A stretch of DNA of 44,475 bases from an uncultured Clostridia bacterium. GTDB taxonomy: Bacteria > Bacillota > Clostridia > Christensenellales > Aristaeellaceae. Below, piece after piece: positions 11,638-37,211 of this stretch. Position 1 is the first letter of the stretch. Every line of letters begins with the position of its first letter. The position numbers were made by a program, and so were the translations under genes. The stretch spans positions 1 to 44,475 of the forward strand of contig CAMFCQ010000014.1 in NCBI GenBank assembly GCA_945948915.1. The letters run 5' to 3'. The notes under the pieces were generated by a model. That model saw only the letters and a program-made list of their open reading frames with translations. It was not told the DNA's origin and searched no databases.

Positions 11638-12639
11638 TTACACAGATTCGCGCAGCACCAGCTCGGTCTTGAGCAGGAACTGCTTGGGTTCGCCGGACGC
11701 AGCGCTGACCATGCGCTCGGCGAGCACCTCCATGGCCATATAGCCAAGCTGGAAGCGGGGAAGATTGACGCTCGTGACGCTGGGGTGGTGCATCTGCGAG
11801 ATATAGGTGTTATCAAAGCTGATCAGCGCCAGATCCTGCGGGATGGAAAGCCCGGCCATCACGGCGGCCTTGACCACGGCGGCGGCGTACATGTCGCTGG
11901 CGGCGAGGATTGCGTCTGGGCGCTCCTTGGCCAGCAGCATCTGCTGCGCAACGGCCATGGAGCTGTCAAAGCCCATCTCCGTGACATTGGCTTCCAGCAG
12001 CGGATCGACGGAATGGCCGGCCTGACGCAGCGCTTCTTCATAGCCCTGGCGGCGATGGCGTGCGTATTTGTACTTTTCCGGGCCATTGATGAGCGCGATG
12101 CGCCTTCGCCCGGCGCGCAGCAGCGTCTCGGTTGCGCTGCGCGCGGCGGAGATATCGTCAACGCCCACGTACGGCAGCGGGCTGTCCTCGTTGTATTCTG
12201 CGCACTGCACCAGCGGAGCGAGCTGGTTGAGCTCATCGAGCACGGCACACTGCGAAACGGGGGAAAGCAGAACGAGGCCGCATGCATTGGTCGTGCGCAG
12301 CAGCGATGCCAGCCGGGCGGCATGGCGCTCGACATTGCCCTCCGGATAGAGCAGCACGTCGAGACTGTGCGATTTGGCCGAGGTCTGCAGGCCGAGAATG
12401 ATCTCGGCATAAAAGGGGTTGGACAGATTGGGCAGCACGGCGATGACCAGCTGATTGACGCGCCCGGCGGCGGGCAGGTCCCGCGGATAGCCCAGCGCAT
12501 CCATGGCCTCGTTGACCTTCTGCGCAGTGGAGAGGCGCACGGCGGCGCTGTCATTGATCACGCGGGAGACGGTAGCGATGGATACGCCCGCCTCGCGCGC
12601 GACGTCCTTGATGGTCGGTTCGGAGCCCTTTTTCTTCAT
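11638..12639 (-). CDS. LacI-family transcriptional regulator
   Basis: A 333-residue sugar-responsive repressor. The N-terminal helix-turn-helix is TIKDVAREAGVSIATVSRVIND (residues 9-30) with the hinge region at about 48-60, followed by a periplasmic-binding-protein-like effector domain (residues 62-330). It is divergent from the sugar ABC operon starting at 13052 and presumably controls it. A palindrome overlapping its own -10 box suggests autoregulation. The ATG follows GGAAAGGCGGGGG. The effector cannot be deduced from the sequence. Confidence 0.95.
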   Translation of the reverse strand: MKKKGSEPTIKDVAREAGVSIATVSRVINDSAAVRLSTAQKVNEAMDALGYPRDLPAAGRVNQLVIAVLPNLSNPFYAEIILGLQTSAKSHSLDVLLYPEGNVERHAARLASLLRTTNACGLVLLSPVSQCAVLDELNQLAPLVQCAEYNEDSPLPYVGVDDISAARSATETLLRAGRRRIALINGPEKYKYARHRRQGYEEALRQAGHSVDPLLEANVTEMGFDSSMAVAQQMLLAKERPDAILAASDMYAAAVVKAAVMAGLSIPQDLALISFDNTYISQMHHPSVTSVNLPRFQLGYMAMEVLAERMVSAASGEPKQFLLKTELVLRESV

Positions 12640-12667
12640 CGCCGCCCCCGCCTTTCCGTTACGATGA

Positions 12668-12689
12668 ATCCATTATAGCATCAATGGAT
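12668..12689. promoter_or_regulatory. Candidate LacI-type operator over lacI-family promoter
   Basis: ATCCATT (12668-12674) and AATGGAT (12683-12689) form a 7-bp inverted repeat with an 8-base centre, overlapping the -10 box of the regulator gene. The geometry suits binding of a dimeric repressor; the assignment is inferred. Confidence 0.5.
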
Positions 12690-12700
12690 CGGACATGTAA
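12672..12700 (-). promoter_or_regulatory. Promoter of LacI-family regulator gene
   Basis: On the minus strand TTACAT (12700-12695), a 17-base spacer and TATAAT (12677-12672). A TTGACA further upstream is 27 bases from this -10 box and is not a usable -35. Confidence 0.7.
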
Positions 12701-12826
12701 ATCATGTCAAGCATATAATGACAAATTTTCATGCCGACAGCTGCAAAACAGAGGATTCAGAGCAAATCAAACGGGAAAAAGCAGGCGAGGCAAGCAATGT
12801 AAACTTATGAAAACGAATCATACGAA

Positions 12827-12855
12827 TTGACAAAGCGAAGGCGGCATGCTATCAT
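12827..12855 (+). promoter_or_regulatory. Promoter of sugar ABC operon with flanking direct repeats
   Basis: TTGACA (12827-12832), 17-base spacer and TATCAT (12850-12855). The nonamer ATCATACGA occurs twice, at 12817-12825 just upstream of the -35 box and at 12851-12859 over the -10 box, 34 bases apart, which could be regulator half-sites. The 200-base leader from here to 13051 holds no gene that I can support. The region 12700-12826 is AT-rich with no other recognisable feature. Confidence 0.72.
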
Positions 12856-13051
12856 ACGATTAGCGTAAGTGAACAAACATCGTACAGTTCCTCTGTGAAT
12901 TTATTCTGTAATCCGTTGGCGGCGTTTCGGTTTTCGGTCGGATCGTTTTCATGGGATGCAGAACACTTCAAGGGGCGGCGGTTTGTTTGCTGCAGGGCCG
13001 TTCCGGGGCGGATACCGGAAGATCAACAACTTTTTTAAGGAGGAAACTGTT

Positions 13052-13993
13052 GTGAAGAAGATTCTGGCTATCGTTGTGGCGCTCGTGCTTTGCCTGGGCA
13101 TGATCCCGTTTGCGCAGGCTGAGGCTGTGAAGGTCGGCGTGCTCGTGCCTGCTGTGACGCACGGCTGGGTCGGCGGCATCACCTACAACGCTGAGCAGTA
13201 CTGCAAGGAGCTTGAGGCTGCGGGCACCATCGAGTACAAGCTCTACACCAGCTCCAATGCCGAAGAGATGACCACGCAGATCGACGAAGCGGTGCTCTGG
13301 GGTGCGCAGGCGCTGGTCATCGCGCCGCAGTGGACCGGCATGGAAGTCGCCGCGCAGGCCGCGATTGACGCGGGCATCACCGTCGTGGCGTTCGACATGG
13401 ACATCCCGGCCGAGGGCATCTACAAGGTCACCGGCGACAACGAGTCCATGGGCGTTGCCGGCGCGAAGTACATCGTTGAGAAGATCGGCACCGAAGGCAC
13501 CGTCGTGGCGCTGCCGGTTCCGACCTCCGGTTCCGTCTCTGAGCTGCGCATGAAGGGCTTCACCGAGACCATGGCCCAGATCGCCCCGAACGTTCAGATC
13601 ATCGAGTACGCCACCAAGTTCACCCGTGAGGATGGCCTGAAGGATATGGCGGACATCCTGACTGCCAACGCGAAGATCGATGCCGTCTTCTCTCTGGACG
13701 ACGAGACCTCCATCGGCGCGCTGCAGGCGATCGACGACGCTGGCCGTACCGAGATCAAGGCGATCACCGGCGGCGGCGGATGCCAGGAGTACTTCGGCAT
13801 CATCAAGGAGAAGGCTGACCAGATCGGCGCCTGCTCCGCGCTGTACAGCCCGCTGATGATCAAGGACTGCATGGACGTGGCCATCGCTGTTGTCGGCGGC
13901 GAGACCGTGGAAGCCGTCAAGGTCATCCCGTCCCAGATCGTGTCTGCGGAGAATGTTGACGAGTACCTCGACCCGGCCAACACCATCTACTAA
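13052..13993 (+). CDS. Sugar ABC transporter substrate-binding protein (ribose-type)
   Basis: A secreted binding protein of 313 residues with a Sec signal peptide (VKKILAIVVALVLCLGMIPFAQA, cleavage after about residue 23; no lipobox cysteine). The mature part is a type I periplasmic-binding fold of the RbsB class, with VGVLVPAVTHGW at strand 1, QIDEAVLWGAQALVIAP, VVAFDMDIP, and TGDNESMGVAGAKYIVEKIG. The GTG start at 13052 is 8 bases after AAGGAGG. A terminator follows, so the gene is likely made in excess over the ATPase and permease. The ligand is probably a monosaccharide or polyol. Confidence 0.93.
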   Translation: MKKILAIVVALVLCLGMIPFAQAEAVKVGVLVPAVTHGWVGGITYNAEQYCKELEAAGTIEYKLYTSSNAEEMTTQIDEAVLWGAQALVIAPQWTGMEVAAQAAIDAGITVVAFDMDIPAEGIYKVTGDNESMGVAGAKYIVEKIGTEGTVVALPVPTSGSVSELRMKGFTETMAQIAPNVQIIEYATKFTREDGLKDMADILTANAKIDAVFSLDDETSIGALQAIDDAGRTEIKAITGGGGCQEYFGIIKEKADQIGACSALYSPLMIKDCMDVAIAVVGGETVEAVKVIPSQIVSAENVDEYLDPANTIY

Positions 13994-29352: not shown

Positions 29353-29429
29353 GCGCCTTTAGCTCAGTCGGATAGAGCAACGGCCTTCTAAGCCGTGGGC
29401 CAGGGGTTCGAATCCCTTAAGGCGCGCCA
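29353..29429 (+). tRNA. tRNA-Arg (TCT)
   Basis: Acceptor GCGCCTT pairs with AAGGCGC; the anticodon loop CTTCTAA gives TCT; the T-loop GGTTCGAATCC is standard; CCA is encoded. Confidence 0.96.
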
Positions 29430-29432
29430 TGT

Positions 29433-29510
29433 GGTGGGTATAGCTCAGTTGGTTAGAGCGCCAGATTGTGGCTCTGGAGGTCCTGGGTTCGACTCCCAGT
29501 ACTCACCCCA
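29433..29510 (+). tRNA. tRNA-His (GTG)
   Basis: Anticodon loop TTGTGGC gives GTG. An extra G before the acceptor (29433) faces the discriminator C (29507), the known identity element for histidine; CCA is encoded. Confidence 0.96.
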
Positions 29511-29538
29511 CTTTTTCGCTGCAGGATGCAGGTTCCGT

Positions 29539-29614
29539 TGGGGTGTCGCCAAGCGGCAAGGCACGGGACTTTGACTCCCGCATTCGCAAGGTTCGAATCC
29601 TGCCACCCCAGCCA
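29539..29614 (+). tRNA. tRNA-Gln (TTG)
   Basis: Acceptor TGGGGTG pairs with CACCCCA; anticodon loop CTTTGAC gives TTG; CCA is encoded. Confidence 0.95.
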
Positions 29615-29617
29615 TTT

Positions 29618-29693
29618 GATCCATTAGCTCAGCTGGTAGAGCACCTGACTTTTAATCAGGGTGCCTGGGGTTCGAATCCCCAATGGGTCACCA
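29618..29693 (+). tRNA. tRNA-Lys (TTT)
   Basis: Acceptor GATCCAT pairs with ATGGGTC; anticodon loop CTTTTAA gives TTT; CCA is encoded. Confidence 0.95.
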
Positions 29694-29706
29694 TTTTAGT
29701 GACTTT

Positions 29707-29789
29707 GCGGGTGTGGCGGAATGGCAGACGCGGCAGATTTAGGATCTGTTGCCAGAGGCGTATGAGTTCGAGTCTCTTCACCCGCACCA
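29707..29789 (+). tRNA. tRNA-Leu (TAG)
   Basis: Acceptor GCGGGTG pairs with CACCCGC; anticodon loop TTTAGGA gives TAG; the long variable arm expected for leucine is present (83 bases in total); CCA is encoded. Confidence 0.95.
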
Positions 29790-29794
29790 TTTAT

Positions 29795-29869
29795 GCGGTA
29801 GTAGCTCAGTGGTAGAGTGCCACCTTGCCAAGGTGGATGTCGCGAGTCCGAATCTCGTCTACCGCTCCA
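29795..29869 (+). tRNA. tRNA-Gly (GCC)
   Basis: Acceptor GCGGTAG pairs with CTACCGC; anticodon loop TTGCCAA gives GCC; CCA is encoded. Confidence 0.95.
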
Positions 29870-29873
29870 CTGT

Positions 29874-29947
<74 letters not shown>

Positions 29948-29953
29948 TTACAT

Positions 29954-30029
29954 GCACCATTAGCTCAGTTGGTAGAGCACCTGACTCTTAATCAGGGTGT
30001 CCCGGGTTCGAGCCCCTGATGGTGCACCA
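29954..30029 (+). tRNA. tRNA-Lys (CTT)
   Basis: Acceptor GCACCAT pairs with ATGGTGC; anticodon loop CTCTTAA gives CTT; CCA is encoded. Its body is nearly identical to the tRNA-Lys (TTT) at 29618, suggesting local duplication followed by an anticodon change. Confidence 0.95.
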
Positions 30030-30268: not shown

Positions 30269-31051
30269 TCAGGTATTCTCTGAAGAGTTCACCGCGTCGC
30301 GCGGCTTGGTCAGCCGCGCAACCAGCACGCTGACCTCGTAGAGCAGATACATCGGCAGGCCAAGCATGAGCTGGGAGACGATGTCCGGCGGCGTGAGAAT
30401 TGCGGCGAGCACGAAGATGCCGAAGAACACGAATTTCCTGGAAGAGGTGAGCTGAGCAACGGTTACCCAGCCCATGCGGGCTGCCATAAAGATGGCAACA
30501 GGCATCTCGAATACAACGCCGAAGGGCAGAAGGAACGAGAACAGGAAGTTCACATACTTGTCGATGGAAAGCATCGGCGTTGCCAGATCCTCGCCTGCGA
30601 CGAGGAAAAGATTCAGCGCAAGCTCATAGACGTAGCCATAGCAAAACACGATGCCGCCCAGGAACAGAAACAGGGCGACGAAGAACAGTGCACGGAACAG
30701 CCTGATTTCGCTCTCGTACAGCGCGGGCTTAACAAAGGACCAGACCTGATAGAAGATAAAGGGGCTGGTCGCCACGACACCGGCAATCAGCGAGATTTTG
30801 AGCTTTGTTGTGAATGCCTCGCTGACGGCGGTATAGATGATCTGCACGCCCCGGGCTTCGATCGGACTTGTGATGAACTTCATCAGCGAATCGCAGAAGA
30901 AGTAAAACACAATGACGAAGCCGACGAGAATCGCGATCAGGACCGCCATGACCAGCTTGCGAAAGGCCATCAGATGTGAAAGCAGAGGCTGCGTGTTGCC
31001 CGTAACGCCTGCGTCATGCTCGCTGATGACGTCAGACTTCTTTTTATTCAT
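30269..31051 (-). CDS. tatC: Twin-arginine translocase subunit TatC
   Basis: TatC is the receptor for twin-arginine signal peptides in the export of folded proteins. The 260-residue protein has six hydrophobic helices. Typical family segments are LSHLMAFRKLVMAVL at residues 24-38 (from the conserved 'HL.ELR' region), YQVWSFVKPALYESEIR near 107 (the signal-peptide-binding loop), FGVVFEMPV near 176 and LTPPDIVSQLMLGLPMYLLYE near 222. The start at 31051 lies 8 bases inside the tatA gene, so translation is coupled. The stretch upstream in this frame is tatA read out of phase. Confidence 0.97.
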   Translation of the reverse strand: MNKKKSDVISEHDAGVTGNTQPLLSHLMAFRKLVMAVLIAILVGFVIVFYFFCDSLMKFITSPIEARGVQIIYTAVSEAFTTKLKISLIAGVVATSPFIFYQVWSFVKPALYESEIRLFRALFFVALFLFLGGIVFCYGYVYELALNLFLVAGEDLATPMLSIDKYVNFLFSFLLPFGVVFEMPVAIFMAARMGWVTVAQLTSSRKFVFFGIFVLAAILTPPDIVSQLMLGLPMYLLYEVSVLVARLTKPRDAVNSSENT

Positions 31052-31223
31052 CCTTCTTCTCTGCCGGCTGAGCCTCGGCAGCAGGGGCGTCTTCCTTGAC
31101 TTCCTTCTTGAACTCCTTGATGCTCTGGCCCAGCGCCTTGCCCACGCCAGCCAGCTTGTTGCCGCCAAAGAGAACAAGCGCCAGCACAACGATCAGAAGA
31201 ATTTCCATAGTTCCCAGTCTCAT
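31044..31223 (-). CDS. tatA: Twin-arginine translocase subunit TatA (59 residues)
   Basis: TatA oligomers form the transport pore of the Tat system. The 59 residues start with MRLGTMEILLIVVLALVLFG, one membrane helix, followed by the hinge GGNKLAGVGKALGQSIKEFKK-like amphipathic helix and an acidic tail ending EKKDE. It starts at 31223 after GGGAGGT and ends inside tatC by 8 bases; the start is only one base past the tatB stop. It is short enough to be missed by a 60-residue cut-off. The glycine-rich hinge and amphipathic helix distinguish it from TatB. Confidence 0.95.
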   Translation of the reverse strand: MRLGTMEILLIVVLALVLFGGNKLAGVGKALGQSIKEFKKEVKEDAPAAEAQPAEKKDE

Positions 31224-31224
31224 G

Positions 31225-31554
31225 TTATTTACCTCCCATATTTGACTTAAAGTCCTTGAAGCTGACGTCCTTCTTGACCTCGTTCAGCTCCTTGTTGATG
31301 GTCAGCTGCGTTTTCTGCAGCTCCGGACGGATGTCCGCAGCGCGGACACTTTCATCGATTGTGCGCTCCATGCTTTTGAGCTCGCTCTCGACTTCATCAA
31401 GCCCGGATTCACGCTTGACTTCCTCAATCATATTGCGAATGTACCGGACAAAACGGCCCAGCGCTCTGGCAATCTTGGGCAGATCCTTTGGGCCGACGAC
31501 CACAAACGCAATCAAGAGGATCAAAATAAGTTCGGCGAAGCCGATATTGAACAT
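31225..31554 (-). CDS. tatB: Twin-arginine translocase subunit TatB-like
   Basis: A 109-residue protein with an N-terminal membrane helix carrying the TatB-type start FNIGFAELILILLIAFVVVGPKDLP (Glu at position 8 and the GP hinge), an amphipathic helix (KIARALGRFVRYIRNMIEEV) and a long charged helical tail. In TatABC systems TatB works with TatC in recognising signal peptides. In many Firmicutes the Tat systems are only TatAC, so a separate TatB-like protein is notable. ATG after AGGAGGAGGA. Operon order is tatB-tatA-tatC. Confidence 0.88.
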   Translation of the reverse strand: MFNIGFAELILILLIAFVVVGPKDLPKIARALGRFVRYIRNMIEEVKRESGLDEVESELKSMERTIDESVRAADIRPELQKTQLTINKELNEVKKDVSFKDFKSNMGGK

Positions 31555-31589
31555 GTCCTCCTCCTCCTGGCTAGATGCTTACATCGAAC

Positions 31590-31618
31590 ATTATAAACCA
31601 GTTTGCATACGCTTGTAA
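31590..31618 (-). promoter_or_regulatory. tat operon promoter
   Basis: On the minus strand TTACAA (31618-31613), 17-base spacer and TATAAT (31595-31590), 36 bases before tatB. A TTGACT box just upstream is too far from the -10. Confidence 0.72.
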
Positions 31619-31765
31619 AGTCAAAAGGAGAAGAATTCGCAGCAAATAGTCAAAGTGGAATCCTAACGGTCAGTTTATGAAACGAAGTATTGATTTCAAA
31701 TCATGCAATATTGTGAAGATGACCGCCCTGTTCTAAAATATTCTGCAAGACACTATGAAAAAAGC

Positions 31766-31794
31766 TTGACGAACGGTTAAGGATCAGCTACAAT
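31766..31794 (+). promoter_or_regulatory. Promoter of ydhYV operon
   Basis: TTGACG (31766-31771), 17-base spacer and TACAAT (31789-31794). Transcription should start near 31801, giving a leader of about 238 bases. The AT-rich stretch 31619-31765 between the two divergent promoters shows no gene; an FNR-like site was not obvious. Confidence 0.82.
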
Positions 31795-31800
31795 AATTCT

Positions 31801-31962
31801 AGATGTAGGCCCGTTGACCGGGCAGACAGACACAAACTCCAAGCCGCTGTTGCCCTCCGGGTATATGCGGCCAATGGGTGGCGGGGGCAACTGCGCCGCC
31901 TGCCTGATGCGAAGGAGTGCAAAACGAAGGACAGACACAAGAGGTGTCCAGGCTTTGTTTGG
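31801..31962 (+). promoter_or_regulatory. Probable molybdenum/tungsten cofactor (Moco/Tuco) riboswitch
   Basis: The leader of the YdhY/YdhV operon holds a compact, GC-rich structured region. An outer helix is formed by ACTCC (31836-31840) and GGAGT (31914-31918). Inside are the segments AGCCG, GCCCTCCGGGTA, GCGGCCAATGGGTGGC and GCCGCCTGCC, whose pattern matches my memory of the Moco RNA motif. A separate hairpin GCCCG/CGGGC (31809-31823) lies at the 5' end and another, long hairpin (31920-31961) follows and may be the expression platform. The location before a pterin-cofactor enzyme agrees. Identified from memory and context, not by a model search. Confidence 0.7.
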
Positions 31963-32038
31963 CATTCCCGTTTTTGTTGCTTGCGTTTTTATCCCTGATG
32001 CGTTAAGGAATCTGAGTAAACAAGGAGGAGAGAATACC

Positions 32039-32668
32039 ATGTCTGACAAGAAACGTTTCCTCGACAAGGACTACACGCGCCGTCAGTTCCTCAAGCTTTC
32101 CGGCAAGAGCCTGGTTGGCGTGACGATGTCCTCCGCGATGCTCTCTACCCTCGGTGTGACGGCTGCTGCCTTGGCTGAGGATAAGGTCAAGGTCTGGGCG
32201 TTCCCGCAGGGCCTGCTCGTGGTCAATCCGGATCGCTGCGTCGGCTGCCAGCGCTGCGAAATCAACTGCACGCTGACCAACGACGGCTGCTGCTCCAGCT
32301 ACATCTCCCGCGTGAAGGTCACCCGCAACCTGTACTCCAGCCGCAACGGAGAGGGCCTGTATACTGAGAACAACTGGACCTACTTCCCGGATACCTGCCG
32401 TCAGTGCGAGGATCCGGCATGCGGCAATGCCTGCCCGATGGGCGCGATCTATGCTGACGAGAGCGGCATCCGCAAGGTGGACACAGAGAAGTGCGTCGGC
32501 TGCGGCGCCTGCACCGCCGCCTGCCCGTGGCATATGCCGACGGTCAACCCGGTGACCAAGAAGTCCTCCAAGTGCGTGATGTGCGGCGCCTGCGTCGAAG
32601 GCTGCCCGTCCGGCGCGCTCTCCATCATCCCGTGGGACAAGGTTTCCGCTGCTGCTCAGGCGATCTGA
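32039..32668 (+). CDS. ydhY: YdhY-type Tat-exported ferredoxin subunit (four 4Fe-4S clusters)
   Basis: A 209-residue electron-transfer protein. The N-terminus has a twin-arginine signal, YTRRQFLKLSGKSLVG (R14-R15), then a hydrophobic stretch and AALA, with cleavage expected near residue 46. The mature part contains sixteen cysteines in four groups: C67/70/73/77, C120/123/128/132, C152/155/158/162 and C179/182/185/189, enough for four 4Fe-4S clusters. The sequence (DTCRQCEDPAC, KKSSKCVMCG) and the following gene closely resemble E. coli YdhY-YdhV as I remember them. ATG after AAGGAGGAG. It probably passes electrons from the aldehyde oxidoreductase to an unknown acceptor. Confidence 0.9.
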   Translation: MSDKKRFLDKDYTRRQFLKLSGKSLVGVTMSSAMLSTLGVTAAALAEDKVKVWAFPQGLLVVNPDRCVGCQRCEINCTLTNDGCCSSYISRVKVTRNLYSSRNGEGLYTENNWTYFPDTCRQCEDPACGNACPMGAIYADESGIRKVDTEKCVGCGACTAACPWHMPTVNPVTKKSSKCVMCGACVEGCPSGALSIIPWDKVSAAAQAI

Positions 32669-32704
32669 GAACGGCGACAAGAATAATCAGAGGAGGAATT
32701 CACA

Positions 32705-34867
32705 ATGTCTGTTAAGAATGGCATCAACGGCTGGGCCGGTTCGATCGTGCGCATCAACCTGACCACCGGCACGATCACCACTGAAGATACGCTCCCGAAG
32801 TACAAGCCATATATCGGCGGCATGGGCCTTGGCTACAAGGTCATTTGGGACGAGGTTCCGCTCGATTCCGACCCGCTTGGCCCGCAGGCGAAGGCCGTGT
32901 TCGCCGTCGGCCCGCTGACCGCCTCCGGCGTGCCGTGCTCCGGCCGTATGAACATCTCCTGCCTCTCCTGCTGGAGCAAGGGCAATTCCATCGTGGACGC
33001 GCACATGGGCGGCCATATCGCGCATGCCTTCAAGTACGCTGGCTTTGACGCGATGATTCTGGAGGGCCAGAGCGACAAGCCGGTCTATATCAAGATCGAC
33101 GATGAGAAGGTCAGCATTGAGGATGCCTCCCATGTCTGGGGCAAGGGCACCTTTGAGACCAACGCCACGCTCTCCAAGGAGAACGGCGACACGTTCGACG
33201 TGGCGTCCATTGGCCAGGCGGGCGAGAACCTGGTGCCGATGTCCACCATCATCACCTCCTTCGGCAACTCCGGCGGCGCCGGTATCGGCGCGGTGCTGGG
33301 CTCCAAGAAGGTCAAGGCCCTCGTTGTCCGCGGCACCGGCGCGGTGAAGATCGCGCGCCCGATGGAGGTTCGCCTGCTGTCCAACTACATGATCAAGGAC
33401 CTGGTCGGCGGCAACAACAACCATAACGTTCCGACGGTTCCGCAGAGCTGGGCGGAGTACTCCGCAACCTCCAAGAACCGCTGGCAGGGCGGCCCTGGCG
33501 TCACCTGGGACAAGGCGCCCAATGGCCCCATCGACACCGGCGAGCAGCCCAGCGGCGTCATCAACGTTGCCGCGATGCGCTGCAACAAGGGTGTGTTTGA
33601 CTTCGGCGCAGTGGCCGAGAAGTACACCGTGAAGCAGGGCGGCTGCTCCTCCTGCCCGGTGCGCTGCTACACCGAGTATGAGCTGGATCCGCTGGCCGAT
33701 TACGACCTGCCGACCCATGTTTCCAACACCTGCATCCCGATCACCGGCCAGACCGGCATTTACTGCGGCTTCGCCCACGACTTTGTGGACGAGGGCGACG
33801 CGAAGATCGTTCTGGGCGGCGCGGGCTCCCGTGCGCAGGACGACTACGGCGTATGGTGCAACTATGGCAACCTGAAGACTGACTTCGCCCGTGCTTACAA
33901 GGACGGCATCCTCAAGGAGCACATGACCGAGGAAGAGTGGAACGAGGTGCCGTGGGACCTGATGGAGAGCGGCGATCCGCGTTGGGCTGTTGAGTTCTAT
34001 AAGCGCATTGCCTCCGGCAAGGGCGCGTGGGGCGTCATCGGCAAGGGCTCCTATGCCATGTACAAGGAGTGGGGCCTTGACGATGCCAGCAAGAACTCCG
34101 CCGGCAAGAATTACTATGACGAGGTTTCCAGCTCCAACACGAATGTCACCTACAACGGCTATCCGAAGCACCATTCCTCTGAGGAGTGCTGGCAGACCGG
34201 CCTGCTCTACAATACGGCGTACAACCGTGACTGCATGATCCACGTGATCACGAACGTGGTGCGCTCCGGCTCCCCGTTTGAAGCGGTGATCAAGCCCGTT
34301 GCCGAGAGCTTCTTTGGCGAGGGCTGCGTGGATGCGCCGAAGGCGTACACCCCGATCAACGAGAACAAGGTCAAGCTGGCCAAGTGGGCGCTCAATGAGA
34401 AGCAGTGGCACGATTCCGCGACGCTGTGCAACTGGATGTACCCGATGATGCTCTCCACGAGCAAGAAGCGCGGCTACAAGGGCGACCTCGAGCTGGACGC
34501 GAAGTACATGAGCGCCGTCGTCGGCGAGGATTACCAGCGTGCCGATATCGAGTGCGATTCCGAGCGCATCACGCAGATGCTTCGTGCGATGACCGCGATC
34601 TCCTTCAAGGTCAATCTGGGCAGCACCAACCTGCGCAAGGATCACGATGCGATCCCGGCCTGGGTCTTTGACAAGGAGCCGGACTTCAAGGCGTTTGAGG
34701 AGGGCACCGTCAAGATGGATCGTGAGGACTGGGAGAAGTCCCTCGACCTGTGGTATGACGCGCTGGGCTGGGACAAGGAAACCGGTATCCCGACCCGCGA
34801 GACCCTTGAGAAGTTTGATCTGGGCGACTGCGCCGACAAGCTTGCAGAACTGGGCCTCATCAAGTAA
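32705..34867 (+). CDS. ydhV: Aldehyde ferredoxin oxidoreductase family enzyme, YdhV-type
   Basis: A 720-residue tungsten or molybdenum bis-pterin enzyme of the AOR family, which oxidises aldehydes or reduces carboxylates with ferredoxin. The 4Fe-4S ligands are C314, C317 and C321 (GCSSCPVRC) with C575 in LCNWMYP as the probable fourth. N-terminal GWAGSIVRINLTTG and NNNHNVPTVPQSWAEYS are characteristic of the YdhV branch. There is no signal peptide, so if it is exported it must ride with the twin-arginine ferredoxin encoded just before it (36 bases upstream). ATG after AGAGGAGG. C-ending codon bias suggests strong expression. Confidence 0.93.
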   Translation: MSVKNGINGWAGSIVRINLTTGTITTEDTLPKYKPYIGGMGLGYKVIWDEVPLDSDPLGPQAKAVFAVGPLTASGVPCSGRMNISCLSCWSKGNSIVDAHMGGHIAHAFKYAGFDAMILEGQSDKPVYIKIDDEKVSIEDASHVWGKGTFETNATLSKENGDTFDVASIGQAGENLVPMSTIITSFGNSGGAGIGAVLGSKKVKALVVRGTGAVKIARPMEVRLLSNYMIKDLVGGNNNHNVPTVPQSWAEYSATSKNRWQGGPGVTWDKAPNGPIDTGEQPSGVINVAAMRCNKGVFDFGAVAEKYTVKQGGCSSCPVRCYTEYELDPLADYDLPTHVSNTCIPITGQTGIYCGFAHDFVDEGDAKIVLGGAGSRAQDDYGVWCNYGNLKTDFARAYKDGILKEHMTEEEWNEVPWDLMESGDPRWAVEFYKRIASGKGAWGVIGKGSYAMYKEWGLDDASKNSAGKNYYDEVSSSNTNVTYNGYPKHHSSEECWQTGLLYNTAYNRDCMIHVITNVVRSGSPFEAVIKPVAESFFGEGCVDAPKAYTPINENKVKLAKWALNEKQWHDSATLCNWMYPMMLSTSKKRGYKGDLELDAKYMSAVVGEDYQRADIECDSERITQMLRAMTAISFKVNLGSTNLRKDHDAIPAWVFDKEPDFKAFEEGTVKMDREDWEKSLDLWYDALGWDKETGIPTRETLEKFDLGDCADKLAELGLIK

Positions 34868-34879
34868 GGCTTTCGGCAC

Positions 34880-34908
34880 TTGATTTGCCAGCCTGAACGT
34901 GATATGCT
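34880..34908 (+). promoter_or_regulatory. Possible promoter of ydhW-like gene
   Basis: TTGATT (34880-34885), 17-base spacer and TATGCT (34903-34908). The predicted start falls in the terminator hairpin that follows, so this promoter could bypass it. The match is moderate. Confidence 0.5.
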
Positions 34909-34909
34909 T

Positions 34910-34940
34910 GTGGGAGGAATTCACGTTCCTCCCACTTTTT
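34910..34940 (+). terminator. Terminator after ydhV with overlapping alternative stem
   Basis: GTGGGAGGAA (34910-34919) and TTCCTCCCAC (34926-34935) form a perfect 10-bp stem followed by TTTTT. A second helix, GAACGTGA (34895-34902) with TCACGTTC (34921-34928), shares bases with the terminator 3' arm and cannot form with it at once. Confidence 0.88.
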
Positions 34941-34970
34941 GCGTATTTGCATCAGAAAGGAAGATGCTCA

Positions 34971-35816
34971 ATGTCTTTGTTTGGACGGCGCAAGCCAGGG
35001 TTTTCCAAGGAGGTAGAGCTGCGGCCCGAGGATATCTCCGACGAGTTTTCGGATCGCAACGACCCAGCCATACAGCGAGATGACAACCCAAAGCAGGAAA
35101 AGGCGGAGTACGCCGCACGCGCGCAGGCCGTGATGGACGGAATGGCGGTTGGCGCCACGGCGAGCGCGCCCGAAGCAGCGCAGCAGGATGATCACGAGGG
35201 AAAAACCGTCGATCTGTTCGATTATATGGATTCCCTGCCCGATGTTGAGGACCCGTTCCCGCCCAGCGAGCCGGAACCTGAACCGGAGCCCCAGCCTGAG
35301 CGCAAGCCCGGCGAGCTGCTCGCCGATTACATCCGCAGCCGCTCCGCTGTTGCCCAGCTGACACCGCGCAAAGCGCTGGAGGAAGAGGAGCCGCAGCTGG
35401 AGGAGATGCTTGCGGAGATTCACAGCCTTGAATCGTGCGCGGACATCAGGAGCGTGCAGGGGAGCAAGGACGAGTATTTCTATTCCGAAGAGATCATGGC
35501 GAACAACTATGCGATGATCGTGATGCTCGTATTGGAAAAGAACCTTGCCCGCACCGTTGCGCACATGGTCCGCTTCAATTGCAAGACATATCCTTCGCCC
35601 ACGCCGCTGTATCACTTCATGCGTTCTCCGTACAACTACACCAAAACGCAGCTGGAGCAAGCGCTGCGCGTGCTGAAGGCGGACAAGGATACACAGGATA
35701 TCAAGACCGTTGAATCGTTCAACGGCGTGCTGTACATGTATTCCACGGATATCATGTCCGAGCGCTATGCCAAGGCGCTGGCTGATGGCAATGAGACGGA
35801 GGAAGGGGATTCCTGA
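34971..35816 (+). CDS. YdhW-like protein of the oxidoreductase module
   Basis: A 281-residue soluble protein with no clear catalytic motif. The N-terminal half is disordered and acidic, with a proline/glutamate repeat (EPEPEPEPQPERKP near residue 101) before the folded C-terminal part (about 145-265), which contains AEIHSLESCADIRSVQGSK-like and HMVRFNCKTYPSPTPLYHF segments. In E. coli the gene after ydhV is ydhW, an uncharacterised member of the same operon; the position and overall character suggest this is its counterpart. The start ATG at 34971 follows AAAGGAAG. Role unknown, perhaps maturation or regulation of the enzyme. Confidence 0.68.
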   Translation: MSLFGRRKPGFSKEVELRPEDISDEFSDRNDPAIQRDDNPKQEKAEYAARAQAVMDGMAVGATASAPEAAQQDDHEGKTVDLFDYMDSLPDVEDPFPPSEPEPEPEPQPERKPGELLADYIRSRSAVAQLTPRKALEEEEPQLEEMLAEIHSLESCADIRSVQGSKDEYFYSEEIMANNYAMIVMLVLEKNLARTVAHMVRFNCKTYPSPTPLYHFMRSPYNYTKTQLEQALRVLKADKDTQDIKTVESFNGVLYMYSTDIMSERYAKALADGNETEEGDS

Positions 35817-35949: not shown

Positions 35950-36483
35950 TTACAGCCTTTGGCAGAGCAGTTTAAAAAGCGCCTGACGGTTCTCCTGCGT
36001 GACCGTCAGCACGGTGACATCGTCCCGCTTCGCAATGCGGGCGACGTGCTCTGATCCGCACTTCTGTAGCACGCCGAGCACGCGCTTCTTCGAATCAAGG
36101 CACGCCTCGATCTGCGCGATGAAGCCTTCTGCCTGGCGTTCGAGCCGGCCCAGCTCGTCCATCAGGATGTACGGCGCAGGGGAGGCAAGGCTCCTTTTCA
36201 GGATGAGCACGCCATTTTCCTCAAACACAGGAAGCACCGGCACAGCGCGCTTTTCTTCTATGCGCGCGCAGCAGATGCAGTCGTTTTGATACGGCGGCAT
36301 ATCGACGCGCCCGTGCAGCGTAAAGCCCCGGCGTTCACCGTTTAAGCAAAACGCCTGTGTCTCAAATCCGGCGCAGTCAAGACCTCTGGCTTCAATCAGT
36401 CTGCGCAGCAGCGTGGATTTGCCCACCTGCTTGTCGCCGGTCAGAAACAGATGCCTGCGCAGCTCGGGCAGATCACTCGGCAT
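35950..36483 (-). CDS. THEP1-type nucleoside-triphosphatase
   Basis: A 177-residue P-loop NTPase. Walker A is LTGDKQVGKSTLLRRLI at residues 14-30; Walker B is YILMDELGRLE near 105. Length and the ending CQRL fit the THEP1 family (archaeal/bacterial nucleotide phosphatase-kinase). The sequence has cysteines NDCICCAR near residue 68. Its start overlaps the end of mobB by 11 bases, indicating a coupled pair. THEP1-type NTPases recur beside MobB genes in anaerobes and their role there is not established; a function in cofactor insertion or regulation is inference. Confidence 0.82.
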   Translation of the reverse strand: MPSDLPELRRHLFLTGDKQVGKSTLLRRLIEARGLDCAGFETQAFCLNGERRGFTLHGRVDMPPYQNDCICCARIEEKRAVPVLPVFEENGVLILKRSLASPAPYILMDELGRLERQAEGFIAQIEACLDSKKRVLGVLQKCGSEHVARIAKRDDVTVLTVTQENRQALFKLLCQRL

Positions 36484-37171
36484 GCTCGGCCTCCTTTGCC
36501 CAGGAAAGGATGAGGGCGCGCTGCTCCGCAGTCAGTTTGAGTTCTTCACCGTCAAGAATCACCTGAAGCGCATCCTTTTCCTGCTTCTTCTCGTGATGAT
36601 GGCATCCGCACTGGCAGAAGCCGTCGTCCGTTACGCCGGCGACCGGCGGCAGCGGCTCATCCAGCAGCGCGCAGGGCTGAATGTCCGGTATCCTTTGGTC
36701 GATGTAGTCAAGCAGCGCGTCGGCATGGTCAAGCGCGTTAAAGCGCGGCAGCGGAAGCTCGATCTCCGGCTTCTGGCTGATGCGACCGGAGAAGGCAAGC
36801 GTACGGCTGTTCATGCGCGGCAGTGCGTCATCTTCCTTGTGCGCGCAGACGATGCGCGGCACCGGCGCGGCGTAATCGCCCTCCAGCAGCACATAGTCAA
36901 ATCCCTTGTAGGCATCGAGAACCTTGGAGAGCGGTAGCGCTTCCGGGTAGAGGAACGTCGTTTCAAACCGGGCGCGCGCGCAGACCAGTTCGCTGCCGGC
37001 ACGGCGGTGTCTGGCGGTGTTGCTGGTGGATGTGTCCATGGAAAACGTGGGGCAGAACACCGTTTTGCAGGTGCCCACCTTCTTGCCGCGGCGGCGAATG
37101 GCTTCCACCAGAGCGGTGACGGTGCTGGTCTTGCCGGACTTGCGGATGCCGACGATGGTGATGATTTTCAT
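36473..37171 (-). CDS. mobB: MobB-like molybdopterin cofactor adaptor with Cys/His cluster
   Basis: A 232-residue GTP-binding protein related to MobB, the adaptor in molybdopterin guanine dinucleotide synthesis. Walker A GIRKSGKTS lies at residues 8-16; the ARHRRAGSELV segment near 53-63 and the LLEGDYAAPVPRIV segment near 95-108 (Walker B region) are family-like. A C-terminal extension adds C186, C188, C190 and H191-H193 (CQCGCHHH), a likely metal-binding patch, plus a helical tail. I placed the start at 37171, six bases after AGAGGT; ATG 37177 directly abuts that site. AOR enzymes use a plain bis-pterin without GMP, so its client may be another enzyme. Confidence 0.85.
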   Translation of the reverse strand: MKIITIVGIRKSGKTSTVTALVEAIRRRGKKVGTCKTVFCPTFSMDTSTSNTARHRRAGSELVCARARFETTFLYPEALPLSKVLDAYKGFDYVLLEGDYAAPVPRIVCAHKEDDALPRMNSRTLAFSGRISQKPEIELPLPRFNALDHADALLDYIDQRIPDIQPCALLDEPLPPVAGVTDDGFCQCGCHHHEKKQEKDALQVILDGEELKLTAEQRALILSWAKEAEHAE

Positions 37172-37211
37172 AGTCATACCTCTGTCTGTTGTTCATGCGT
37201 TTACAGACGCC

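Follow-up and report, generated by a model that had tools for sequence, protein, structure and literature searches.

A ydhYVW operon divergent from tatBAC in a Clostridia genome: a predicted exported Class V oxidoreductase preceded by a short Moco-type aptamer

Introduction

How might a tungsten- or molybdenum-dependent enzyme that carries no export signal of its own come to work outside the cell? The question is raised by a locus in the DNA analysed here (the window: 44,475 nucleotides, contig C14 of the 2.9 Mb, 88.7% complete draft genome of an uncultured Clostridia bacterium). In it tatB, tatA and tatC, genes of the twin-arginine translocation (Tat) system, are divergent from ydhY, ydhV and ydhW (table 1). 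An initial annotation had described this layout, and profile searches find every gene in its place; the TatABC set is complete, each model scoring over its cut-off. YdhV (WorL) is a large subunit of the aldehyde oxidoreductase (AOR) family and YdhY (WorS) a polyferredoxin. The named relatives closest in YdhV are Clostridia metagenome-assembled genomes (taxonomy: Bacillota, Clostridia), Candidatus Ventricola among them.

We consider it fairly probable that the locus encodes a Class V oxidoreductase that would be exported as a complex by virtue of the Tat signal of YdhY, through the general Tat translocase of the cell, with a tungsten-sensing aptamer controlling the operon and YdhW assisting assembly.

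The export signal of YdhY

Which of the two subunits carries a signal? The window's YdhV starts straight with the AFOR domain and has none. The N-terminus of YdhY (18 cysteines in all), MSDKKRFLDKDYTRRQFLKLSGKSLVGV...TAAALAED, displays TRRQFLK, a hydrophobic stretch and an AxA site, ALA-ED, and is of the Tat type. Among the 31 further loci of the window's family two have a truncated YdhY; the twin arginine (RR) is kept in all 29 of the 29 intact ones. To look further afield we used a named set of 80 loci, whose genomes partly overlap the family set. Twelve lack a readable YdhY start, leaving 68, and RR is present in 59 of these 68, the other nine being Enterobacterales loci with RL.

Is such a locus already known? 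Class V tungsten-containing oxidoreductases (WORs; clade 41, with E. coli YdhV) are defined by the Tat signal and/or transmembrane domain of their small subunit, and their periplasmic orientation was inferred in the same work (PMC13328260, June 2026). The window holds a small subunit with the conserved TRRQFLK, a large subunit of the YdhV clade (over the cut-off of NF007354, and aligned at full length with E. coli YdhV) and, as the at least one further subunit expected, a ydhW gene whose product is a candidate for that status. By sequence, the locus is a member of the published Class V WORs. The central proposal of the initial annotation, that the AOR-family enzyme is exported by hitchhiking on the ferredoxin, thus stands as a prediction, given a signal on the ferredoxin alone, the retained RR and the shared solved complexes described below; it is not new, since it is already in PMC13328260. 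What we add, and did not find in the literature, are regulatory details (the aptamer) and targeting details (the kinds of signal). The main text of PMC13328260 is without the words lipoprotein, lipobox, riboswitch, cysteine ligand, Ventricola and Christensenell-.

The nearest published counterpart, CsWOR41LSW of Cetobacterium somerae, likewise has L, S and W genes, a Tat signal on S, adjoining tat genes and an S predicted to take L outside. There, however, TatAE and TatC are encoded downstream (PMC13328260) and TupABC upstream, whereas the window has a divergent tat operon that includes TatB, an aptamer before ydhY and no recognised TupA. The E. coli operon ydhYVWXUT shares homologous Y, V and W and a cysteine ligand (C336). 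Its YdhY has TRLEFL in place of TRR and a lipobox-like LLGC, and it adds YdhX (TRRKF, with the full RR), the cytochrome YdhU and YdhT, none of which was seen beside the window's operon or at the Clostridia loci compared.

Would the large subunit travel with the small one? YdhV and YdhY match the large and Fe–S subunits, respectively, of the solved complexes 9mqx, 6x6u (WOR5 of Pyrococcus) and 8c0z (AorAB of Aromatoleum), with which they share this two-subunit architecture by sequence. In all three, the part of YdhY matched by the Fe–S chain starts at residue 59 or 60, past the signal. Homology thus suggests that YdhY and YdhV form a complex, the structure matches being no proof of pairing. Transport of this kind has a precedent in PaoABC (YagTSR) of E. 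coli, in which the signal on the Fe–S subunit takes signal-less partners through Tat; PaoABC belongs to the xanthine oxidase family, and its catalytic subunit is unrelated to YdhV. The 8c0z enzyme builds filaments (PMC10413684).

We envisage that YdhV, probably with a tungsten–bis-molybdopterin cofactor and a 4Fe–4S cluster, would fold and be loaded in the cytoplasm and there bind YdhY. Because only YdhY bears a Tat signal, the complex would cross the membrane folded and work on the outer face, where electrons would pass through the YdhY clusters. An alternative is that YdhY alone is exported and YdhV stays in the cytoplasm, using another ferredoxin or a transient YdhY pool. The missing signal of YdhV fits this, as does the purification of the C. 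somerae Class V pair, in which S was not found with the tagged L (PMC13328260); because this is the single published purification, a stable L–S complex is not established for Class V. However, wherever the contig extends far enough, ydhY immediately precedes ydhV, homologous L–S complexes have been solved, and YdhY clusters stranded outside without a donor would presumably idle. We regard export of YdhY alone as unlikely.

Is the signal the same throughout the class? We recognise three kinds. The first, RR without a lipobox and mostly with AxA, is that of the window's lineage. The second, RR followed by a lipobox-like LFGC or LMGC, occurs in other Clostridia, including 18 of the 18 named RR loci that lack the short aptamer. 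The third, RL with a lipobox, is found in all nine of the nine named Enterobacterales loci and in E. coli. By the lipobox rule the last two kinds point to lipoprotein anchoring, and RL in place of RR blocks Tat. A lipid anchor would explain how a cell lacking a periplasm retains the complex; in the window's lineage another means would be needed, or the complex would be released. The three kinds predict a location for each Class V member.

Could the signal instead be an uncleaved membrane anchor, so that the complex is never fully translocated but stays membrane-bound, perhaps on the inner side? The window's operon offers no other anchor, and the lipobox is lacking in its lineage but for locus L091. 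On the other hand, in 37 of the 68 named YdhY an E or D follows AxA, as is usual for signal peptidase I (SPase I) sites, and a plain anchor would have no need of the RR pair, which Clostridia conserve strictly. We think an anchor of this kind improbable.

The translocase and its clients

Why should tat genes stand beside ydhYVW at all? We examined 150 related genomes, the window's own included. TatC scores over cut-off in 22 of the 23 genomes with a full-length YdhV, as against 22 of the 127 without (Fisher p 3e-13, not corrected for kinship); within the genus (own genome and 28 others) the figures are 12/13 and 7/16 (p 0.008). The tat genes lie within 5 kb of ydhYVW in 13 of the 23 YdhV genomes (G000, G001, G008, G009, G010, G011, G026, with tatB at a contig end, G027, G030, G057, G060, G082 and G083). 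Contig ends cut the arrangement in G020, whose tat genes and aptamer lie together at one contig end, and in G013. Eight genomes show no linkage on their contigs (G014, G024, G028, G037, G039, G053, G071 and G075); G014 has three copies, one of which (C172) has only about 1.2 kb upstream. With one tat locus within 5 kb in a 2.5 Mb genome, and phylogeny ignored, chance would give about 0.4% per genome.

Beyond the relatives, 47 named RR loci were evaluable, with at least 2.5 kb upstream. Tat genes lie within 4 kb in 25 of these and divergent within 2.5 kb in 19; since the BLAST queries were the window's Tat proteins and distant tat genes may be missed, these counts are lower bounds. The divergent order recurs in Hungatella, Tissierellia, Anaerocolumna, Dielma, Pseudoflavonifractor and Ruminococcaceae records. 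In a tree limited to loci whose TatC was long enough, the TatC of nine such loci (L153, L155, L159–L162, L170, L171 and L176) belong to a clade deeply split from the window's, with support 1.0. Five Faecalibacterium loci, Oribacterium and others are unlinked. TatC was found in 18 of 19 named genomes chosen from the 80 loci (17 RR, 2 RL), the miss being an RR one.

We conclude that the linkage is not due to chance, and the expectation that tatABC and ydhYV would keep company in relatives is borne out. An accidental neighbourhood would suit the 22 of 47 evaluable named loci without tat within 4 kb, but the rate is far over chance, and loci with this divergent order have TatC of two clades that are deeply split; we find an accident hardly credible.

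Is the translocase, then, reserved for this oxidoreductase, as the initial annotation thought possible, a claim that many other Tat substrates would undo? The linkage, together with the near-constant presence of TatC where YdhV is, lends this some appeal. To address the question we searched the window's genome for other Tat signals. The motif pattern alone gave 11 matches, as against 7 in a reversed control, and because it is so weak only motifs close to the start of an open reading frame (ORF) were kept. These belong to a second YdhY (C7) and to four further proteins: a flavodiiron–rubredoxin-like protein (C61), one with C_GCAxxG_C_C (C84), one with C_GCAxxG_C_C and FMN_bind (C42) and one with FMN_bind at a contig end (C119). 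TIGR01409 also matched C127 above its cut-off (17.0 bits) and C17 beneath it (11.1); both were dropped for want of such a motif. With these further RR-signal proteins the objection applies in part, and only one TatC was found in the genome. Moreover, TatC occurs in 22 of the 127 relatives without a full-length YdhV, and at 22 of the 47 evaluable named loci tat is not adjacent, so the module is not self-contained either. We therefore reject a dedicated translocase as very improbable; the neighbouring TatABC would be the general Tat translocase of the cell, serving the second YdhYV and other exported redox proteins.

Two side observations concern these proteins. The flavodiiron–rubredoxin-like family is usually cytoplasmic, and the C61 protein (L063, 103–1599, minus strand), with its RR signal, would be an exported oxygen or NO reductase. 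Three genus members without ydhV, G003, G018 and G025 (L103, L106 and L110), have a second and deeply divergent type of TatC, about 33% identical to the window's; G018 holds both types.

The aptamer upstream of ydhY

How might the operon be controlled? Between the tat and ydh operons lies a molybdenum/tungsten riboswitch aptamer of family RF01055, overlooked in the initial annotation. It has the RF01055 core without the P3 hairpin, as have the P3-lacking molybdenum-cofactor (Moco) RNAs of PMC2408646, which in the portions bearing on them makes no mention of ydhYVW. A promoter consensus scan gave 4 sites, as against 0.6 in shuffled sequence, and putative sites lie separately on both strands. 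Structure 3' of the aptamer was sought as an expression platform, and neither a stable fold (z 0.92) nor a plus-strand terminator-like site was found there.

Eighteen such short copies align well, and their predicted fold shows two-sided changes in 12 of 23 pairs and no P3. A search of 90 further loci with a model built from these 18, which had been chosen since RF01055 had found them, returned 54 strong matches (E ≤2e-13); the named set accounts for 41. In the window's family (the window and 31 others) the short aptamer accompanies 31 of the 32 ydh loci; of these copies 18 served for training and 13 were found by the model; the training copy of G020 is on a contig end separate from the ydh locus, and the sole locus without one (G013, C102) is cut by a contig end. 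In the named set the short aptamer is present at 41 of the 68 loci, its 3' end 46–193 nt (median 102) upstream of the start codon. Does its presence dictate the kind of signal? A strict rule that the aptamer excludes the lipobox fits the named set (41 loci with aptamer and no lipobox, 27 the reverse, n=68) and was rejected, L091 having both; kinship accounts for most of the split.

Other copies stand elsewhere in the window's genome: one before a FecCD permease gene, which has retained P3, one of full length (134 nt) at modA and another short one preceding the second ydhYVW. Outside the family, a longer copy (130–141 nt) stands just after ydhW in four of five loci searched (L157, L160, L161 and L162) and was not found at the fifth, L155. 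At L159 and L160 the downstream genes resemble, by eye, moeA, moaC and moaA.

What metal does this suggest? P3-lacking Moco RNAs have been proposed as candidate tungsten-cofactor (Tuco) sensors, given a near perfect match with tungsten use, the ligand being unproven (PMC2408646). Because a P3-less aptamer precedes ydhY, that proposal favours tungsten as the metal of YdhV, and the operon would have its own promoter and a riboswitch that probably senses the tungsten cofactor. The aptamer type would then be a sequence clue to tungsten versus molybdenum use in each member, independent of transporter genes. Predictions from aptamer and signal alike are testable in named relatives such as Dielma fastidiosa, Anaerocolumna aminovalerica and Faecalibacterium. 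Among the open-licence PMC papers listed in our searches, none treats, by title or abstract, an aptamer upstream of ydhYVW.

The active site of YdhV and its likely reaction

Is YdhV an aldehyde-oxidising enzyme? In an alignment of ten sequences, its C343 occupies the position of C336 in the E. coli protein, and all 10 of the 10 have Cys there. An extra cysteine ligand to the metal is common to YdhV and BamB, the second-shell residues of the aldehyde enzymes are absent, and in the latter, unlike YdhV, the metal has no protein ligand (PMC12096430). This difference separates YdhV from AORs in the strict sense and from the 8c0z, 6x6u and 9mqx enzymes. YdhV also matches the N-terminal domain of BamB (class II benzoyl-CoA reductase, 4z3w), which belongs to another, cytoplasmic complex. 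According to PMC13328260, no Class V WOR has a known reaction, and published screens of 46 aldehydes gave nothing. Because of the conserved YdhV/BamB-type cysteine and this failure, ordinary aldehyde oxidation is probably not the reaction of YdhV, and we favour reductive chemistry. The conserved ligand would thus steer work away from aldehyde screens.

YdhW

What might the third protein do? In an AlphaFold2 model, YdhW has an acidic N-terminal tail and a domain of two winged-helix-like units (approximately residues 111–275), with a predicted local distance difference test (pLDDT) of 97–98 per 10-residue block over residues 111–270. Each unit runs helix–helix–helix–hairpin–helix, the fold comparison serving as a second look only. 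As modelled, the protein is acidic and probably of tandem winged-helix form. Its pI is 4.5, and the predicted third helix of the second half is basic; because the protein is acidic, a DNA-binding role appears less likely. A Pfam search of 42 YdhW rows gave nothing useful, a profile search of the Protein Data Bank (PDB) gave only RPC3, at E 0.33, and TorD, an all-helical chaperone fold considered for YdhW, is not among the 50 fold-comparison matches listed. We suggest that YdhW is not itself exported and probably works as a factor for assembly or proofreading, acting through protein contacts.

At its start (window 34971–35003) YdhW has a conserved MxLFGRRKPGF-like motif, in 30 of 42 aligned rows, with no hydrophobic stretch. 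L153, L154 and L176 have two tandem ydhW-like genes behind ydhV.

Weighing co-export

Several observations weigh against export of a tungsten-loaded YdhY–YdhV complex by Tat, beside the small subunit missing from the C. somerae purification. The general Tat-signal model TIGR01409 gives the window's YdhY 9.5 bits, under its cut-off of 16.7, for which reason it is the motif, together with its conservation, that carries the signal call. In Enterobacterales the second Arg is missing from the small subunit, and the window's lineage, L091 apart, lacks the lipobox. Two YdhV-bearing genomes, G013 and G155, both drafts, yielded no TatC. The window's aptamer scores below the Rfam gathering threshold of 36 bits. 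TupA was not recognised in the genome by the weak PF12849 test, whose three matching stretches fall on two contigs (judged by eye, one ORF adjoins a permease-like ORF and another resembles a LysR regulator), and the genome has a ModA gene, which is accompanied by an aptamer of its own. The ydh operon has no gene for a membrane anchor or quinone partner, nor one for a flavin or membrane subunit.

With these points counted, co-export of the complex is still the reading that we prefer. A more elaborate version is a tentative one, to which we give low confidence: a Tuco riboswitch would control an exported, non-aldehyde tungsten reductase of gut Clostridia, the lipid anchor of this lineage's small subunit having been swapped for an SPase I site, and YdhW, as a tandem winged-helix protein, would hold back export until the metal is in. 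If so, a tungsten enzyme would be released or only loosely held outside the cell.

The locus and its neighbours

Table 1. Features of the window around the tat and ydh operons.
Feature	Position	Strand	Support
tatC	30269..31051	-	TIGR00945 195.5 bits (cut-off 132.7); PF00902 206 bits
tatA	31044..31223	-	TIGR01411 54.6 (cut-off 53.9); PF02416
tatB	31225..31554	-	TIGR01410 66.1 (cut-off 56.5)
tatBAC promoter-like site, TTTACA-18-TATAAT	31590..31619	-	consensus scan, 11/12; putative
ydhYVW promoter-like site, TTGACG-17-TACAAT	31766..31794	+	consensus scan, 10/12; putative
Moco/Tuco riboswitch aptamer, P3 hairpin absent	31825..31932	+	RF01055 34.4 bits, E 1.8e-6
ydhY (worS), Tat-type signal (~residues 1-46) and polyferredoxin	32039..32668	+	NF007382 241.3 (cut-off 213)
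ydhV (worL), AOR-family large subunit	32705..34867	+	NF007354 875.9 (cut-off 868); Pfam AFOR_N, AFOR_C
ydhW-like gene	34971..35816	+	NF007411 155.2, under cut-off 203; E 2e-45
NTPase_1 family gene, convergent neighbour	35950..36483	-	PF03266
mobB-like gene, convergent neighbour	36473..37177	-	PF03205 55.2 (cut-off 26.6)

The NTPase_1 family gene adjoins ydhW in several relatives too. The usual client of MobB is a guanylated cofactor; the mobB and NTPase genes (35950–37177) adjoin the operon, yet no DMSO-reductase-type enzyme was found by PF00384 in the draft genome. One gene with MoCoBD_1 (xanthine dehydrogenase family) is present, on C90.

A second ydhYVW operon in the same genome (G000:C7, 16285–18387 and flanks; L072, 7570–11056) encodes a YdhV about 46% identical to the window's and a YdhY with its own RR signal; tat is not adjacent to it. 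Between ydhV and ydhW, L138 has a 345-aa ORF (12406–13440) and L141 has strand-ambiguous ORFs. Immediately past tatC the window carries a cluster of eight tRNA genes (29353–30026).

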